A stretch of 36,505 nucleotides of DNA, from positions 1 to 36,505 of the IMG/VR virus record IMGVR_UViG_3300005253_000386; one strand, given 5' to 3'. The notes under the pieces are model-generated. The model was not told the origin of the DNA. It did no database searches and worked only from the letters and a program-made list of their open reading frames with translations. Below, piece after piece: positions 1,990-36,505 of this stretch (position 1 is the first letter of the stretch; each line of letters begins with the position of its first letter). A program made the translations under genes and the position numbers. The stretch comes from a virus.

Positions 1990-2721
1990 TCATGTCCTGA
2001 TGTCCCGGTATCCCATCACCTGAATCTTCGTATCGTTGGTGCTTTTGTTCGCTCGATATTGTATGGTCTGAGATGAATCGCAACCGCAAATTGTGTTTGC
2101 GCGTTGTAGGGCACCTCCCGTCAACGTCTTGATTGCCATGATGGATGTTCCCAATCCGGCAACGGTATTTCCCAGGTCTTTATTCCGGATAAACACTCCT
2201 CGGTCAAGTCCACTCGCATCATTTGAGCGTATTGACAACATCAACTCTCGACACGTTTCTGGTGCAGCCGTGGAACAGATAACATCAGTGAAATCGGTTG
2301 GAGAAGTCGAAACATCTATTTTCTCAAAATCAGGTTGGGTTGTATCTTCATTCCACCAAAACAAGTCATGACCAGCGGAGTTGACGATACGATAGAAATT
2401 GCTGTTTGCGTCATTTCGCATCCATCCCAATCGCAACTTATTTGTCTCTCCTCCTGGGACAGCAGGTCCACTGGCCGAAAGGGAGAGCAATGCAATGAGC
2501 GATGCAGGTAAACCCGCCCCATCACAAGCAACCCAAACTGACCACCACGAATTTGCCGTCTCGCTTCCCGCATCTCTGCCGTTCGCCCCCAGCACATTGA
2601 GATCAGCGACAAGACTTACATTCTGGTGCTCGACCCCTTGGATCACAAGGGTGTCAGCCGTAATATTTACTTTTCCCGGATCTGCACCGTTCGACAGTTG
2701 CAACCCATTGGCTAAATTCAT
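1990..2721 (-). CDS. Fibre/adhesin-like virion protein, paralogue 1
   Basis: A 243-residue protein. The central domain carries the pattern ANGRDAGSETANSWW, then a run of hydrophobic Ser/Ala residues (LLSLSASGPAVP), RLGWMRNDA, and WWNEDTT. This pattern is familiar from tail, neck or fibre proteins of many tailed phages. It aligns over nearly its full length with the next gene upstream (2718-3575), including the ending (YRDIR against YEDIR), so the pair arose by tandem duplication. The start ATG overlaps the upstream stop. Its position after the propeller-like tail protein fits a receptor-binding or tail-tip decoration role, which is inferred. Confidence 0.65.
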   Translation of the reverse strand: MNLANGLQLSNGADPGKVNITADTLVIQGVEHQNVSLVADLNVLGANGRDAGSETANSWWSVWVACDGAGLPASLIALLSLSASGPAVPGGETNKLRLGWMRNDANSNFYRIVNSAGHDLFWWNEDTTQPDFEKIDVSTSPTDFTDVICSTAAPETCRELMLSIRSNDASGLDRGVFIRNKDLGNTVAGLGTSIMAIKTLTGGALQRANTICGCDSSQTIQYRANKSTNDTKIQVMGYRDIRT

Positions 2722-3575
2722 CTGATATCCTCGTATGCGATCACGTCAATGATGACATCGTGAAGGGTATTGTCAGTGTGGTACTCGAAAATTTGGCTGG
2801 CATCCAGAGTCACGAATCCGTGTCTCTTGCCGTTCATCACGTTGCCCACACTGAGCCACGGAACTTGCCCTGCGTTTGAGAGCCCGTTTTCTCGCAGATA
2901 TAGATTTAGTAAATTGTTGGGAACAGATATGATTTGACCGGCGACTTTAATCCTACGGCACGTTGATGGCGCAACAGGTGAGGCAACTACATCAGCGAAC
3001 GCTAGAGCTGAAGTCGCAACATTGAGCACACGAAAGTCGGTTGCCGTTGTATCTTCATTCCAGGTGAACAAGTTGGAATCTGGAGCATTGCTTGAACGGT
3101 AGAATTGCGCTGCCGCGTTCCTCCTTCTCCAACCCACTCTCCTGAAGAAGCTGAAATCCAACGGAATCGCTGGCGCTGTTGCGGACAGAGAGAATAGTCC
3201 GGCCAATGTTGAAATGTTTTCTATCGGTGTTGAGGCAATGACAAAAAAATGATAGCTAGTGTTTACGGTCGGACTTCCTACATCTAATCCGTTTGCTCCA
3301 ACAGGGTTCGTAATATCAGCGGTGATATCTATGTCCCTGAAACCAATTCCACCTACCGACAGTTTGTCAGCAGTGACTCTTGCCTCATTTCGATCTCCGG
3401 TATCCAAAATCTGGAGTTGATCCTGATACTTCAGTAACGATAACGGGCTTCCAACATCTCCAAGTAGTCTCTCCAGGAGAATAGCCTTCTCTAGCGCGAA
3501 TTCATTGTCCCTGTGTCCATGATGAAATGTTTGACCCCGAGGAACCAGCCCCTTATTTAGATTCGGAGCTACCAT
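2718..3575 (-). CDS. Fibre/adhesin-like virion protein, paralogue 2
   Basis: A 285-residue protein when started at the ATG that overlaps the upstream TGA (TGATG). An in-frame start at 3614 would lengthen it by 13 residues inside the upstream gene. A helical N-terminal piece (about residues 1-65, possibly the virion attachment part) precedes the same domain as its paralogue: ANGLDVGSPTVNTSY, LFSLSATAPAIP, GWRRRNAAAQFYR, TWNEDTT, APSTCRR. The extra N-terminus suggests this copy anchors to the tail and the shorter copy derives from its C-terminal domain. Function is inferred from family resemblance and location. Confidence 0.65.
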   Translation of the reverse strand: MVAPNLNKGLVPRGQTFHHGHRDNEFALEKAILLERLLGDVGSPLSLLKYQDQLQILDTGDRNEARVTADKLSVGGIGFRDIDITADITNPVGANGLDVGSPTVNTSYHFFVIASTPIENISTLAGLFSLSATAPAIPLDFSFFRRVGWRRRNAAAQFYRSSNAPDSNLFTWNEDTTATDFRVLNVATSALAFADVVASPVAPSTCRRIKVAGQIISVPNNLLNLYLRENGLSNAGQVPWLSVGNVMNGKRHGFVTLDASQIFEYHTDNTLHDVIIDVIAYEDIR

Positions 3576-5164
3576 CAGATTTTCCCCATATCCTTGAGTT
3601 GATACTGAACCCAACGAATTTTGCTTTGAACCCCAGCGGTAGGGAACGTTACCCTGATCCTCCAGTAACGAGCTGAGTTAAATCCGTTGAGTTTCTTAAA
3701 TTCTCCTCGGGACGTGCTACCGAGCGTTGGCGAGAAAACAGTTACGAACCCTCCCTCTTCTCTCGCCACAGCCACAGTTGAATTACCTCCTGATGTCTGT
3801 GCGCCTTTAATTATTGTGCTTTCGAGTGCATATTTTTTCTCACGATCTGGCCCAAATATTCTCCTGGAGGTCCACTGTGATACGAACGTTGTGCCGTCAT
3901 CATCTGGCGCACTGTCAACGAAGTTCCTAATCCGTCCGTCCTTCCCGCCCAAGTAGATCGTTCGATTGTGATACTCGGCTGAGTTTGGCCCTGCGGTCGT
4001 CGATGGGAATGTCCAGTTCCACCACGTCCCATTGGTCTTTGAAAATACTACTGCCTCTGAAGTGCGCTCTGTGCTCAGTGGTGTTTTTAGAAAAAATAAA
4101 GCCAGTTCCCTTGAAGCCCAATAGACCGCTTTTTGATTTTTATCATCCATCTCTCCGTCACTTGGTGGAATTTGCTGTGGAAATGCGGCCTGAATGATCG
4201 GTCGAACCTTGTGTCCTACGAGGTCAACCGCAAAACCTTTCACTGCGTATATATTGTCCGGATATTGACTCCCCGCATTTGCTCCTTCTCCCCATGTTGG
4301 CGCAACAGCAATTCCCATCATCACTCCACCTACATCCACTGCACTCTTTGAACTAAATCCTCCAATCGAAGTCGTGAGCCGTTCAAGCCTCCATAGCTCT
4401 TGTGCAGCTCCGGTCATCGCCCACAGACTCGTTTGCTTGATCAAGTACAGGATGTCTCCTATGCTTTTTACTCCGGTAAGATGGTCCTGATGTCCAAACG
4501 GCCGTATATCTTCTCTGTTTAATGCCGGATGCGTTCTAGGATCAGCAGTGTCACTCCATCCAAATTCATGAACACGCCTATCCACTCCAGCATCCGCTCC
4601 AATCAAATGATCTCGATGCCACGCTGCCGTTCTATATGCACCTTGTGTTGTGTTTGCACTTATTTGGAAAAGACCCGTTGCGCCCCTGAATTCTAGTTTT
4701 CTTTCCGCATTTACGGCTCCATCGCGTCTGGTAGTAACTTGAATCATGTCGAATGAAGCCGGGATAAGTTCTGCGGATCCAATATCTACTCCTGGTGGAA
4801 CTGAAGAATCGACCTCGTTAATTATTTCTGCGAATGACGAAAAATCTGCCCCATTCAATCTTGCGATTGCCAAGAACGTTGACCCTGATCGGTTATAGAG
4901 ACAATACAAACTATCCGTTACAAGAGAACCTATATCATCAAATGGAATCATCGCAAAACGCACCATGTCGAAAATTCCTCTGGCGTCCGTTGTAATTCTT
5001 GTTGCTATCGTCTGTACAGTCCCCGGTCTCTTGAGAAGTCCGTCGTGATCCGGATAGGTATTTATAGTGTCGTCGGTTTCATGATCCGGTAAGGCTTCTC
5101 TTGCTGCGATCCTATTGATTCCTCCAACGTGAGGAAAGATGAGCTGTGGTTCAAGTAGTGACAT
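3575..5164 (-). CDS. Tail hub / stabilisation protein, beta-propeller-like (P22 gp10-like)
   Basis: A 529-residue protein started at the ATG two bases after the upstream TAG; a GTG at 5197 would add 11 residues. The N-terminus (MSLLEPQLIFPHVGGINRIA, then ...HDGLLKRPGTVQTIAT) is typical of large podoviral tail proteins that begin with a statement of parameters and fold as repeated beta-blades. The rest is beta-rich with recurring W/Y motifs (WHRDHLIGA, GDILYLIKQTSLWAMTG, AVYWASRELALFFL). By synteny with portal, adaptor and fibre genes it should form part of the tail tube or hub beneath the portal. Assignment to the gp10-like group is by pattern, not search. Confidence 0.65.
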   Translation of the reverse strand: MSLLEPQLIFPHVGGINRIAAREALPDHETDDTINTYPDHDGLLKRPGTVQTIATRITTDARGIFDMVRFAMIPFDDIGSLVTDSLYCLYNRSGSTFLAIARLNGADFSSFAEIINEVDSSVPPGVDIGSAELIPASFDMIQVTTRRDGAVNAERKLEFRGATGLFQISANTTQGAYRTAAWHRDHLIGADAGVDRRVHEFGWSDTADPRTHPALNREDIRPFGHQDHLTGVKSIGDILYLIKQTSLWAMTGAAQELWRLERLTTSIGGFSSKSAVDVGGVMMGIAVAPTWGEGANAGSQYPDNIYAVKGFAVDLVGHKVRPIIQAAFPQQIPPSDGEMDDKNQKAVYWASRELALFFLKTPLSTERTSEAVVFSKTNGTWWNWTFPSTTAGPNSAEYHNRTIYLGGKDGRIRNFVDSAPDDDGTTFVSQWTSRRIFGPDREKKYALESTIIKGAQTSGGNSTVAVAREEGGFVTVFSPTLGSTSRGEFKKLNGFNSARYWRIRVTFPTAGVQSKIRWVQYQLKDMGKI

Positions 5165-16877: not shown

Positions 16878-16893
16878 TGTTTCACGTGAAACG
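16878..16893. other. parS-like site (ParB binding)
   Basis: TGTTTCACGTGAAACG matches the widely conserved chromosomal parS consensus TGTTTCACGTGAAACA at 15 of 16 positions. The central 14 bases (GTTTCACGTGAAAC) form a perfect palindrome. ParB clamps load at such sites and spread. No parA or complete parB partner gene is recognisable in the window; a ParB-like domain occurs only in a virion protein (34378-36120) of a different group. The site therefore most likely addresses host ParB. Confidence 0.75.
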
Positions 16894-29110: not shown

Positions 29111-29677
29111 TCAGTCGCGCATCAACCATCCCCCGATGAATGTCTCGTATCGCTTCTGTTCTTCCGCCAGCCGTATGTACCGCCGACGCCGGAGTGTGTT
29201 GATCGCTCGGAATGTCGCGATGGGTACCCACCAAGCCATGGACAGCGCACGCTTCAGCGTCCTGATGGTTTTCTTTCCCACCTTCCCATCCACAACCAAG
29301 TCCGCATACCTGACTCCCTCTTTGTTGAACAAGTTCAAGGCTCTCTGCAAAAACCTTCCCATTGTACGAGGTCCGCAGTTCACGGCTCCATCAAACATTT
29401 CATCCGCTATCTTCGGTGGCATGTCACCGCAACGCAACTTGTCCCAATACCTGAGCCTGTAAATTCTCAGGACCTCCGCAAAGGGAATGTCCCTCATTGG
29501 TCCTCGGTATCCGTTGTGTCTTGCTACCCCGATGGTTATTCCGTAGTTGGTTTCCTTGCCCTTGTCGCGTGGATGGTTCGCGTAGCCGGTCTTTCCCTTG
29601 ATTGGCTTTCCATTCTTCCAAAATCTGACGCCTTCGTTCTTGAGAAGTTTGTTTATGACACTGCCGAATTTAGCCAT
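29111..29677 (-). CDS. Endolysin, GH108 (DUF847) type
   Basis: A 188-residue protein expected to cleave peptidoglycan at the end of infection. It has the family layout: the N-terminal Glu region (LLKNEGVRFW), HPRDKGKETNYGIT (~36-49), YRLRYWDKLRCGDMPPKIAD, EMFDGAVNCGPRTMGRFLQR. A C-terminal peptidoglycan-binding-like half follows (NLFNKEGVRYADLVVDGKVG, KKTIRTLKRAL). No signal peptide is visible, so it depends on a holin. Two membrane-protein genes lie just upstream. Confidence 0.85.
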   Translation of the reverse strand: MAKFGSVINKLLKNEGVRFWKNGKPIKGKTGYANHPRDKGKETNYGITIGVARHNGYRGPMRDIPFAEVLRIYRLRYWDKLRCGDMPPKIADEMFDGAVNCGPRTMGRFLQRALNLFNKEGVRYADLVVDGKVGKKTIRTLKRALSMAWWVPIATFRAINTLRRRRYIRLAEEQKRYETFIGGWLMRD

Positions 29678-31663: not shown

Positions 31664-34351
31664 CTAGAACAGTGACTCGACCGTGATTTCTCCAGATTCT
31701 CTCCTGGCAAGCCCGCTAGCACGAAGTAGCCCTCCACCTTCCCTGATTTGTTCAAACGCTCTTACGCCTGCCCGGCCGCCTGGAATAGCCAGCGGCAACG
31801 TCCGCTTGAATTCTCTCAGTCCTTCAGCCCTGCCCCGTGACAGCGCCGATAGCGCCAGCCCCATCTGTGGGATCGGGCCTACGCCAAATCGCGCAAACCC
31901 AGCGGTGAATCCCAGTGGCCGCGCTGCATCCGGAATGATCGGCCATACGTTGTCACGCATGTCCAATCCGGATACCTCCGCTCCACTTGTGATGACGGCC
32001 GTTCCAACCATGTACCGAATGATCCGTTGAACGTCCTGGTTCGCAAAGTCTAGATTCTTTAGAGCCTTTGCAGTTCTTACTGGGGACAGGAATTCAATCT
32101 GCCTGAACGGGAAGGATCCGAGCTGTCCGAAGAACTTTCCTAACGGGCTTTGAAACGCAAGCGGTGTCCCTGTGCTCATGTAGTTGAACTGAGTCAGGTT
32201 CGCCGCTTTCCTCCCCGCCGCCGCCGCCGCTTCCTTGGTGGCCTTAATTCCGGCCTGTAGCCCAAGACGTTCTGCAACTTGTCGCGTTAAAGTCCCTTCG
32301 ATGGCTCCGAAGTACACCCCAAGATATGCCGAGCTGCGGTTGATGTTCTCTGCGGCCTGAAACATGAACATCAACTTGTCGCCTAGCGCGTTCTTGATAG
32401 CCAGCGGTGCGCTCTCCTGTACGAGTTCCCATCTAGACAGGTTGATAACATTCGAGTCCTTTAGAATTTGCTGGATCTCTTTGTTTCCAAGTTTCCCCGC
32501 CGCCATCTCCCTGTATCCGCGCATGAATACTTTCGTCCCAAACTCTGAGAAGGTGTTGATGCCTTGGGACAGGTTTGTGAGAGCAGAATCCACGGCTCCC
32601 CCCAGCGCACCCAAGAACATATTTCCACGAACAAAATCAGCACCTTGCCTGAACGCTATGTGCAAGGGAGCGTTCATCAGGTTCGCTGTGGACTGTTTGA
32701 TAGATTGCCGAAGCGATGTTACGGGTATCGCTCCAGCAAGCATGTTCATCATCGAAGCCATCTTCTGGAAGAATCCTCCAAGCCTAACCTCTGTGGCGTG
32801 CTTGGCCCCAATTTGGTACGAGGCGTAGTCCGTCAGATACCTCGCGGTGGATTCTGGCATCTTTGCCTGATTCTTGAGAAGCCCTTTCAGTTGCTCATGT
32901 GGACGCCGTAGATATATGTACTTCATCGCAGCTCGCGTGTACGAGTCCATGGCTCCGACCACATCCTCAACGTATCCTGTGGCACCTAAACGTGTCTTGA
33001 GAAACGGGTCCTCAACCTTTCCAATGTACTTCACCGCTGAAGCCAGATCCACCGCCACAAGTTCCTCGGCACCCTGAAGCTCAAATATCCTTGGCATGTA
33101 GTCTTGAATCCTTCTCTGCTCTACAATGCCCAGTCGATCCGCAAATTCCTTGAGAATTCCCCTGATCTCATCTGCTGCCACGATGCCTTCCTGTCCGGCT
33201 ACAGCGAAATCTGCCTGCGTTGCCGTCCGGTCAACAATCTTGTAAACGGACTGGCTTTTTTCGTTTCCTTTCCTGATACCTGACTTCTTGTAGATGCCCA
33301 CCAACCGTTTCCCCATGTTCACCAGAGCGTTCAGCCGAGCCTCATGCGCCCCTTGATACATCTCAGAGATTGCCCCAAGACCAAGCTCTTGCATCACGAC
33401 ATCAGTTGGTCTTACCCAAGACACCGATGTTGCCGTGCCGATGTTCTTCGGGTTCTCGATGATGTTCAGGATCCGCTGGAGGATGATCGGCTCAATGCGC
33501 CCGTTAGCCATGTCCGCAATAACGTTTTCAATCCCCTGATCCAGCGGCTTGAATTCTCTACGAGCACCAGCGCCAAGCGATCTCGGGTTCGGCGGCTCCC
33601 ATTTACCCATCGTCCCAAACTTCTCAATGTTGGCGTCGGTCGCCAATGAACCCGGCTGTGTCACGTGTCGCTCGATGGTCTGCTCCTGGAGTCTGGCAAC
33701 TGGAATCTCTTCTGTTACCGGCCGTGCTTTAACCCGTTGAATGGCTCTTTGAAGCAGCACACCTTTATCCGTTGATCCACCAAAAAAGTCTCCAGTGGTC
33801 GTGTCGATCTTTGCCGCTGCCTCGATGTATTCATCGAATACATCTCTGATCTCTTTGATCTTCGGAGATCTGCTCAGGAATTCAAGAAGTTCCACGTGCG
33901 AAGCTGACCTAGGCGTGACAGCAAAAATCTCACCCTGTCCCAACAACTGCTTGAGGGTTAGTCCCTCAGAATTCATCTTGAGAACGTCCTGGATCGCCAA
34001 CTTGATCTCCCCTCCCAATGCAAGGGGTGTCTGGTTGACCCTGGCAAGGTTGCCTGCTGTTTGTGTGAGCGCAGCCGCAACTCTTCCAAGTCCTGATTCA
34101 GCAGGCATCTCAGTCAATATCTGGATGAGATCGGTGTTCTCCGGCCCGAGCGTATCTGCGAGGAGGGCTTGCTTCACTCTCCGCTGTACCTCGGCTCGAT
34201 TGATCCCCGTCTTCGTCAACAACAGCTCCTTGTCTGGAATATCATCAATGAATCGCTTGATGAAGGCTTTGTTGGTGGCCGCAAAGAGGTTTCCTCCCTC
34301 TCCAGGTGAAAAAATACCCAAGTGTTTCCGGACAATCTTGGAATCGGCCAC
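31664..34351 (-). CDS. Large internal virion/polyvalent protein (C-terminal part of a split gene)
   Basis: An 895-residue protein from a GTG. The first ~100 residues (VRKHLGIFSPGEGGNLFAAT, KAFIKRFIDDIPDKELLLTK) match the segment that normally follows the ParB-like domain in DdrB-type polyvalent proteins, so it seems to continue the ORF 34378-36120. The rest is long and helical, with Ala/Gly-rich hydrophobic stretches (MASMMNMLAGAIPVTSLRQS, VRGNMFLGALGGAVDSALTN) and FNYMSTGTPLAFQSPLGKFF near residue 735. Such giant late proteins are usually packaged and ejected with the DNA. No peptidase or transglycosylase motif is visible. Confidence 0.6.
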   Translation of the reverse strand: MADSKIVRKHLGIFSPGEGGNLFAATNKAFIKRFIDDIPDKELLLTKTGINRAEVQRRVKQALLADTLGPENTDLIQILTEMPAESGLGRVAAALTQTAGNLARVNQTPLALGGEIKLAIQDVLKMNSEGLTLKQLLGQGEIFAVTPRSASHVELLEFLSRSPKIKEIRDVFDEYIEAAAKIDTTTGDFFGGSTDKGVLLQRAIQRVKARPVTEEIPVARLQEQTIERHVTQPGSLATDANIEKFGTMGKWEPPNPRSLGAGARREFKPLDQGIENVIADMANGRIEPIILQRILNIIENPKNIGTATSVSWVRPTDVVMQELGLGAISEMYQGAHEARLNALVNMGKRLVGIYKKSGIRKGNEKSQSVYKIVDRTATQADFAVAGQEGIVAADEIRGILKEFADRLGIVEQRRIQDYMPRIFELQGAEELVAVDLASAVKYIGKVEDPFLKTRLGATGYVEDVVGAMDSYTRAAMKYIYLRRPHEQLKGLLKNQAKMPESTARYLTDYASYQIGAKHATEVRLGGFFQKMASMMNMLAGAIPVTSLRQSIKQSTANLMNAPLHIAFRQGADFVRGNMFLGALGGAVDSALTNLSQGINTFSEFGTKVFMRGYREMAAGKLGNKEIQQILKDSNVINLSRWELVQESAPLAIKNALGDKLMFMFQAAENINRSSAYLGVYFGAIEGTLTRQVAERLGLQAGIKATKEAAAAAGRKAANLTQFNYMSTGTPLAFQSPLGKFFGQLGSFPFRQIEFLSPVRTAKALKNLDFANQDVQRIIRYMVGTAVITSGAEVSGLDMRDNVWPIIPDAARPLGFTAGFARFGVGPIPQMGLALSALSRGRAEGLREFKRTLPLAIPGGRAGVRAFEQIREGGGLLRASGLARRESGEITVESLF

Positions 34352-34377
34352 ACCATCGGCACCGTGTCGGGTGGAGA

Positions 34378-36120
34378 CTACCCGCTACAGAGCCGCACCC
34401 TCTCTGAGAGCGCCCTGTCGCGCTTCTGCTCGGCAATCCCCAGCCCTGCCGTCTGCCTTCCATTCGACTCTCCCAAGAATCTTTCAAGCGTCAGCCCATC
34501 ATCCACATCGTCAACCACCCGCAATAGAATCGGCTTCCGCAACGCATCCACCTGTTCCGGAGCAAGCCCAAAGCCTTGAGCGTTTTCCTTCAGGAACTTC
34601 CTGTACGCTTTCGCCTTCTCAGGTTCAGCAGCGTAGATATTCTTTATCACCTGCGTTCGTACATTTCCGGTCATGGCTTGCAGGTCTTTGGTCACGATTG
34701 GAGTTCCAATATCCGTTGTCACCGATGATCCAAGTCTCTTGGCATCGAATGTCCCCTGGATCCTCGCTATCTGCATCTGTGTGGCAACGTCGTCACGGAA
34801 TCTTGGCTGAAGGATATCCCTGAATCCTGGCTCGAAGCTGTTCCTCACGTCATCCACTTCAGCCAGCACGTACCGTCCACTTACTCTCGCGCTCGAAGTG
34901 GGTGTTGAGGCTTCAAACTGTGCTCCGACGTTCTTCACGGCCGGCGACAATGGTTGCTGCTTGGTCAGCGCCAGCAGACCAGCTTCATCAGCGGTGATAC
35001 CCTCCGCAGCGCGTGCCGCAACAGGCCCAACAACTCTCTGGCCTGCCCCAACAACTTGTCCCTCAACAACGCCGGGTGCAGCACCAGCGGGAGCTGGAAG
35101 TGCTCGCTGTCCAGGTATCGCTTGCGCTGGTGCTGGCTGTCTGAACCCTACGGCTGGCTCCAATGCAAGCCGTGCCTGCGCCTGAGCCGCAGGCCCCGCA
35201 AGTTGCGCTTGTCCCGGTATCACCTGTCCCGGCGCTGGCTGCCTGAACCCTACCGCTGGCTCCAGCGGAATCTGCGCTCGCGGTTGTCCTTCGAGAAGCC
35301 GAGCTGCCGGTTGCTCTGGCCCAAACATCCTTGTTTGCCTTGCCGCTGCCGTTGGAGCCGCCTGCAACTCTTCTTTACTGAGGATCCTGAATTCTCTTCT
35401 ACCCTCTGCGCCTATCAGTTGCTCAAAGTTTTTCGCAAAGTCCTTCGCTATCTCCGCATCGCTGGTCTGCCAAACCTTGCGAATAGCTTCTACGGCCTCA
35501 TCGCGCGTTACGGCTCCACCCTCCCTGAACAGTTTGGCCAGCTCCGGATTTTTCTTCAGTGTGTTGATCGTCGCTTCCGTCAGGATCTTTCCGGCCTGCC
35601 TGGACAGAGTTTCCTTCGCCACTGTCTTTGCCACTATCAGCCCCGCCGCCCTTGCCGCTCTGAGCGTTATAGCAGGGACCGATGCCAAAACTTCGGTTGA
35701 CGCTGCGGCCAGGGACGCTATGGGTGCAATAACCTTTGGTGAGATATTGAGGGCTGTACCTGCTTCTATAATTCCTCCAGCCACAAGCCGTCCACCGAAT
35801 TCAAACAATTGGAATGGAAATTGAAGAAGTTCTCCAACATTCTCCGGCGTAAGCCGTTGAAATTTCGGAAATACCTCTTCTTCCTCAAGGCCAAATGGTT
35901 CCGCTGATGGTTCCGCAGGAGCGCCAGGAAGACGTGTCGCAAATATACGACCCAGCGTTGACGCCCTTTGCGGTTCTTCTCCTTGTACTCTTTCCAGAAA
36001 TCTTTGCAGCGTTGGAGCCACCGGAACTCGTCCGGCCGGTGCCGCTGGAGCTGCACCAGGAATCTGTGGTCCTTTCGGACCCTTGGTCAGTTGCTCAAAC
36101 AGTTCTCGTGCTGGTGCCAT
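34378..36120 (-). CDS. Virion protein with DdrB/ParB-like domain (N-terminal part of a split gene)
   Basis: A 580-residue protein. The N-terminus is Pro/Ala-rich. Hydrophobic segments lie at ~105-155. Two imperfect repeats LEPAVGFRQPAP-Q-IPGQ sit in a Pro/Ala/Gln-rich linker (~283-345). Residues ~430-560 resemble the ParB-like domain of DdrB-type polyvalent proteins (GTFDAKRLGSSVTTDIGTPI, VIKNIYAAEPEKAKAYRKFL, LRKPILLRVVDD). The ORF stops just after NGRQTAGLGIAEQKRDRAL, where the family normally continues. The continuation is found 26 bases later in another frame, in 31664-34351. Confidence 0.6.
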   Translation of the reverse strand: MAPARELFEQLTKGPKGPQIPGAAPAAPAGRVPVAPTLQRFLERVQGEEPQRASTLGRIFATRLPGAPAEPSAEPFGLEEEEVFPKFQRLTPENVGELLQFPFQLFEFGGRLVAGGIIEAGTALNISPKVIAPIASLAAASTEVLASVPAITLRAARAAGLIVAKTVAKETLSRQAGKILTEATINTLKKNPELAKLFREGGAVTRDEAVEAIRKVWQTSDAEIAKDFAKNFEQLIGAEGRREFRILSKEELQAAPTAAARQTRMFGPEQPAARLLEGQPRAQIPLEPAVGFRQPAPGQVIPGQAQLAGPAAQAQARLALEPAVGFRQPAPAQAIPGQRALPAPAGAAPGVVEGQVVGAGQRVVGPVAARAAEGITADEAGLLALTKQQPLSPAVKNVGAQFEASTPTSSARVSGRYVLAEVDDVRNSFEPGFRDILQPRFRDDVATQMQIARIQGTFDAKRLGSSVTTDIGTPIVTKDLQAMTGNVRTQVIKNIYAAEPEKAKAYRKFLKENAQGFGLAPEQVDALRKPILLRVVDDVDDGLTLERFLGESNGRQTAGLGIAEQKRDRALSERVRLCSG

Positions 36121-36505
36121 TATCTCCTCGGTCCAAGATCTTCAAAGGCTGATGGTTGGCCTGCTCGCACTGGTCTTCCTGGTCTATCTATAATCCCGGC
36201 CGTGGATGTCCTTGGTGGTTGAGCTGCTGGCGCTGCTGCCGCTGCTGGCGTTCCCGGTATGGTGATCGGTATGTTCAACCCTTCCGCAGCTGTCGTGGTA
36301 AAGAATCCAAGCGTTTTCTGCCACAAGGATCTGTCATCTCGGATCATGTCAGTCAAACCGAGGAGATACGTTTCTACTCTCGGTCCACCAAAGTTGTTAA
36401 AGAACGCAATGTCTTGTCTACTTGCCGACCATTCCTTGACTTGCTCCGCAGCCTTCGTTGGACTGAGTTGACCGAGCATGAAATTGATCACCGAGACCGC
36501 TGGCA
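36120..36505 (-). CDS. Virion protein, 5' part missing
   Basis: The frame is open to the window end. Visible residues are AVSVINFMLGQLSPTKAAEQ, VKEWSASRQDIAFFNNFGGP and a Pro/Ala-rich tail (IPGTPAAAAAPAAQPPR). An internal GTG at 36491 could be read as a start, but the frame continues upstream and no ribosome binding site is visible. It is probably the C-terminal part of a longer internal virion protein, plausibly the one starting at 563 if the map is circular. The stop overlaps the next ATG (TAATG). Confidence 0.5.
   Translation of the reverse strand, partial: PAVSVINFMLGQLSPTKAAEQVKEWSASRQDIAFFNNFGGPRVETYLLGLTDMIRDDRSLWQKTLGFFTTTAAEGLNIPITIPGTPAAAAAPAAQPPRTSTAGIIDRPGRPVRAGQPSAFEDLGPRR

Follow-up and report, generated by a model that had tools for sequence, protein, structure and literature searches.

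Polyvalent proteins of phages join several domains in one chain, and some of these chains are later cut by proteases. For DdrB of phage P1, the available text of PMC5512222 (Iyer et al. 2017) proposes cleavage by the metallopeptidase at the protein's own C-terminus, and the processed protein is incorporated into the phage head. The DdrB-like ParB polyvalent proteins, P1 DdrB among them, carry a ddrB-ParB domain (PF18763) with a further module directly behind it, and in the Epsilon15-like gp16 proteins (Alcaligenes phage Piluca gp47 and Acinetobacter phage TPWB-05) ParB and the next module are encoded by late virion genes. The locus described here has the same domain and the same module. However, the two parts share one polypeptide in P1 DdrB and are fused in gp16, whereas here they are split into separate frames with stops between them. 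Within our literature searches on DdrB-like ParB and polyvalent proteins we know of no printed report of such a split, and the term 'split' does not occur in the available text of PMC5512222.

Split genes have been described in other phages, such as 43A/43B of phage 44RR, nrdA of Aeh1 and the topoisomerase genes of T4; the halves of nrdA and of 43A/43B are reported to function together, and the interruption of 44RR gene 43 is untranslated (PMC2988022, available part). The present locus resembles the 44RR gene 43 type in that relatives have a continuous gene and an insertion separates two open frames. However, those split genes code for replication or nucleotide enzymes, whereas here a polyvalent protein is interrupted by an insert of about 70 nt. 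Another comparison is offered by T4 gene 60, where ribosomes bypass a gap of 50 nt, bypassing being reported to fall beyond 56 nt in the available text of PMC11194080. There too a non-coding gap lies between open frames of what is elsewhere one protein, but the gap at our locus is longer, the join that restores the family length has no exactly matched codons and no stop stands at the take-off.

Organization of the locus

The window analysed is a whole IMG/VR virus record, linear and 36505 bases long, and the genes concerned lie on its minus strand near the record end. A partial ORF0 (36120-36503) runs off this end and its stop overlaps the start of ORF1 in TAATG; it had no family match above the cut-off (best in Pfam DUF3693, E 0.19; none among the PHROG profiles). 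ORF1 (34378-36120, 580 aa) begins with an ATG preceded by a GAGGAG-type ribosome site and consists of an N-terminal part without known relatives followed by a complete ddrB-like ParB domain. ORF2 (31664-34351, 895 aa) begins with a GTG and comprises a post-ParB helical module followed by about 700 aa without detectable relatives. The initial annotation had placed ORF2 in another frame after a 26-base gap with stops near 34380-34395, and this description was accurate: 26 nt separate the ORF1 stop (TAG, 34378-34380) from the GTG assigned to ORF2 (34349-34351), a second TAG (34385-34387) closes the ORF2 frame upstream, and the open stretches of the two ORFs overlap only at 34384-34378.

The GTG of ORF2 has no clear ribosome-binding site, and its ribosome-site energy is weak (-5.4 kcal/mol). 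Sites equally weak or weaker were found for 10 of the 31 other starts scored, which were our own pick from the ORF list, and several of these lie where genes touch. The minus strand of the junction showed neither a promoter-like nor a terminator-like site, and the plus strand has one weak promoter-like site.

Elsewhere in the window, an endolysin-like gene (29111-29677) matched Glyco_hydro_108 (E 7.4e-21) and PG_binding_3. Two neighbouring ORFs at 1990-3614 matched nearly the same stretch of phrog_17105 (222-306 and 223-308), which suggests a duplication. A palindromic parS-like 16-mer at 16878-16893 has one mismatch to TGTTNCACGTGAAACA, which we take to be the parS consensus, with 0.01 matches expected by chance. 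The site reported in the initial annotation is thus real, but to call it 'beside' the ParB domain was an overstatement, as the two lie about 17.5 kb apart.

The ParB domain of ORF1

The ddrB-type ParB domain that had been recognized near the end of ORF1 was confirmed by PF18763 (E 1.1e-20; 74.5 bits against a curated cut-off of 27.6; profile positions 4-120 of 121). It spans residues 411-536 (34513-34890, minus strand), and at the sequence level this match places it in the ddrB-ParB family. The break falls about 30 residues past the end of the Pfam domain, which is itself uncut. Of the 10 columns that 171-172 relatives share without exception, 8 are kept in the window, including Q43, R47, G77, G90, N91, R93 and Y109, and the two that are missing, A166 and D169, both lie at the break; 36 of the 56 columns conserved at 90% or more are kept. 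R93, the arginine of G-N-x-R, and the tyrosine Y109 are both invariant in 172 relatives and probably correspond to the conserved pocket arginine and tyrosine named in PMC5512222. Two other positions of the conserved pocket are changed in ORF1 (E88 to M, D46 to F), neither residue being found there in any of the 172 relatives. Ahead of the domain, a P/A/Q-rich linker (35090-35310) contains two copies of the imperfect direct repeat LEPAVGFRQPAPxQxIPGQ.

Both halves in relatives

The segment that follows the ParB domain in relatives begins ORF2, as had been proposed. Positions 260-410 of phrog_5143 matched ORF1 409-558 and its positions 424-538 matched residues 16-135 of the ORF2 frame, and phrog_2299 and phrog_14693 likewise matched first the ORF1 end and, at later profile positions, the beginning of the ORF2 frame. 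When 54 relatives (47 loci and 7 named phages) were combined into a profile, its columns 10-165 aligned with ORF1 (107 bits, E 2.5e-32) and its columns 172-356 with ORF2 (64 bits, E 1.9e-19; 33800-34339, minus strand), with six columns unmatched between them. Only these two frames passed the profile, the next best of 703 sequences (all stop-to-stop frames of the window of at least 40 aa and 200 shuffles of the ORF2 head) reaching E 3.5. By these profiles the start of ORF2 falls inside the DdrB-associated region.

In the named phages, including P1 DdrB, both parts occur in a single protein. When viral contigs were scanned with an alignment of the joined region, at least 560 of 599 candidates were confirmed, and the best 80 were kept; blastp of the two halves from the window against these best 80 loci found both in the same ORF in 68, in different ORFs in none, and the ParB half alone in 12. 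The profile was also applied to 209 loci, made up of these 80 and two further sets of 49 and 80. At 206 of them a single hit ran unbroken over the junction and at three only ParB was hit, and relatives with two separate complete proteins, the case that the initial annotation had named as speaking against its reading, were found at none. The 206 loci represent 163 distinct sequences, which group into 101 clusters at 90% identity and into 41 at 50%. The 209 loci were picked by conserved peptides of either half and are a sample, not a survey, and they share with the profile 47 loci that had been picked for having the two halves together in one ORF. Of the 129 loci whose ids do not occur in the profile, some of them other stretches of contigs already in it, 126 span the junction. 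Comparison across these relatives strongly supports a shared ancestry of ORF1 and ORF2 as parts of what is one protein elsewhere.

The ORFs of the three ParB-only relatives (L123, L128 and L130) stop or change close to this junction. By eye they look truncated or recombined, and they were excluded from the evidence for fission.

The AlphaFold model of ORF2 has a confident helical domain at residues 1-180 (pLDDT mostly 75-94) and is poor past the module (mean pLDDT 55.0), where the C-terminal region of about 700 aa (31667-33800) appears mostly helical at low confidence. This region had no match in Pfam, NCBIfam, phages, plasmids or 50 related viral records, no sequence match in solved structures and none by hhalign to three groups of relatives. 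No peptidase was found here in the Pfam and NCBIfam scans.

Position of the break in the fold

The AlphaFold model of the same region in a relative (L014) has a pLDDT of 89.7. Foldseek gave no match for it at E 0.001 or better, while in a second aligner the nine top rows were all N-domains of ParB, Noc, PadC or pNOB8 at Z 5.8-8.0, most of them below 8, a level about which this aligner warns. The alignment stops at model residue 162 in eight of the nine, and the list contained no clear match for the helical module. The break maps to the next helix (model residues 167-175), where E169, A171 and D174 are invariant in 47 sequences. By this model ORF1 thus keeps a complete ParB-N fold and ORF2 starts with the next module. 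The ParB-N fold in the model of this relative is shared with the ParB/Noc partition proteins, from which the window's protein differs in belonging by sequence to the ddrB-ParB family and in the distance of the parS-like site. In a side comparison, gp4 of E. coli phage vB_EcoM_APEC (L010, 2946-5558) was found to be without just the post-ParB module (residues 678-857 of Piluca gp47) and to keep the C-terminal tail, and the same junction is therefore marked as a module boundary.

We consider it fairly probable that the gene was split by an insertion at this domain boundary, that its two products are co-transcribed and that ORF2 is translated by weak reinitiation at its GTG. A broken gene, in which the insertion with its stop inactivated the polyvalent protein and left ORF2 as an untranslated remnant that has so far not decayed, is an unlikely explanation. 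The poor start of ORF2, the two changes in the ORF1 pocket, the destruction by the break of a motif invariant in 171 relatives and the existence of the truncated ParB-only relatives are in its favour. However, the frames of ORF1 and ORF2 are fully open throughout their 580 and 895 codons, the seven invariant residues from Q43 to Y109 named above are retained, and the break lies at a domain edge, which a random hit need not have done.

The extra segment at the junction

Between the invariant E164 and the conserved G187, 168 of 172 relatives have 19-23 residues (22 in 137; four were not scorable), and the corresponding stretch of the window measures 134 nt (44.7 codons). The window thus has about 65-77 extra nt, which shift the frame by -1. 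The most likely figure is 68-71, since the commonest spacing gives 68 and the best-scoring join of the halves gives 71. The extra segment as compared with relatives (34349-34419, minus strand) holds the ORF1 stop and ends at the ORF2 GTG, its edges being uncertain by several nt, as moving the join by a few residues alters the score by no more than a few bits. It lies inside E-x-A-x-x-D, a motif invariant in relatives, and column 166, which is alanine in all 171 relatives with a residue there, departs from it in the window. Its GC content is 66% against 52% for the window, and the codon log-odds drop across it in all three frames, in 12-codon windows that are noisy.

No copy of the segment, tandem or dispersed, was found in the window (a local score of 23 was reached by 81 of 100 shuffles); against phages and plasmids it gave only weak short matches (best E 0.3), and its exact 22-base core had no match in viral contigs. 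No endonuclease gene was recognized at the insertion site. No tRNA, tmRNA or known RNA family was found at the junction. The only Rfam row was a chance snoRNA match (E 4.7) away from it.

An artefact of sequencing or assembly of this metagenomic contig, with the real gene continuous, is less probable still than a broken gene. In its favour, the contig is linear, with no second copy for comparison, and such an insertion occurs in no scorable relative. However, an artefact would need 65-77 extra bases and not a single indel, the segment is not copied from other DNA of the window, and the flanking column 166 also departs from its alanine.

Programmed recoding, also raised in the initial annotation, would yield one protein by a -1 shift or by bypass of the segment as in T4 gene 60: ribosomes skipping 62-71 nt of GC-rich structured mRNA would make a full-length polyvalent protein and a shorter ParB-only protein from one message. 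We regard this as very improbable. The best join of the halves made in silico matches the profile as a single domain, with 193.5 bits compared with 175.5 for the halves set end to end, and regains D169; moreover, few minus-strand stretches fold as stably as the segment (28 of 3644 do so at least as stably). However, for a sequence of this composition the fold is unremarkable (z -0.92; equalled in stability by 13 of 184 stretches with similar GC), and the codon signals known from recoding were missing. No take-off and landing pair of exact codons restores the family spacing, the products of exact pairs being longer or shorter and scoring lower; the pairs that restore the length need wobble (GCG to GCC with 62 nt skipped, GAC to GAT with 71 nt) and have no stop directly after their take-off codons. 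The best-scoring gaps of 62-71 nt lie past the T4 range, gaps of 44-59 nt being found for lower-scoring pairs, and by eye there is no -1 slippery heptamer in the bases open in both frames. Were it a recoding element after all, it would add to the few cases of ribosome bypassing.

A simple sequence error, another suggestion of the initial annotation, is not supported as the sole cause, and a one-base frameshift was rejected as such, because about 70 nt are extra (the junction measures 134 nt against 57-69 in relatives) and the flank has lost residues invariant in 171 relatives.

Probable insertional fission of the polyvalent gene

Natural fission is thus favoured among the three options that had been proposed, but it falls short of proof, as the search for close relatives gave none with a conserved split. 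Close relatives of the phage were sought through ORF2, the ParB part, the terminase and the portal, and none was found in viral contigs, phage records, plasmids or 50 of 80 related viral records. A pattern search with the ParB part gave 32 matches, none of which was confirmed, and weak portal matches were seen in 3 of the 50 related records.

If the gene was divided by fission, its ancestor would have been one gene encoding a ParB-N-like domain with the helical module directly behind it, the arrangement seen in P1 DdrB and in nearly all sampled relatives. An insertion of 65-77 nt just behind the ParB fold would have brought a stop, shifted the frame by -1 and left a usable GTG. ORF1 and ORF2 would then be read from one transcript. 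ORF1 would yield the ParB-N protein, and reinitiation or coupling at the GTG at 34351 would yield a separate helical protein from ORF2. This GTG, 26 nt past the stop, lies slightly beyond the reinitiation window of seven codons quoted in the available part of PMC2988022. Both products are presumably late proteins and, by analogy with P1 DdrB and from the late-gene context, may enter the virion. The ParB part could be injected and act in NTP sensing or as a nuclease, and would no longer have to travel with the helical part.

A split that separates the ParB part is not foreign to the family, because P1 DdrB is thought to cut itself and its processed form is found in the head. If natural, a fission right behind the ParB domain would be a second way of freeing this domain, besides cleavage by a protease, and it would give a ready split pair in which each half of the polyvalent protein can be tested.
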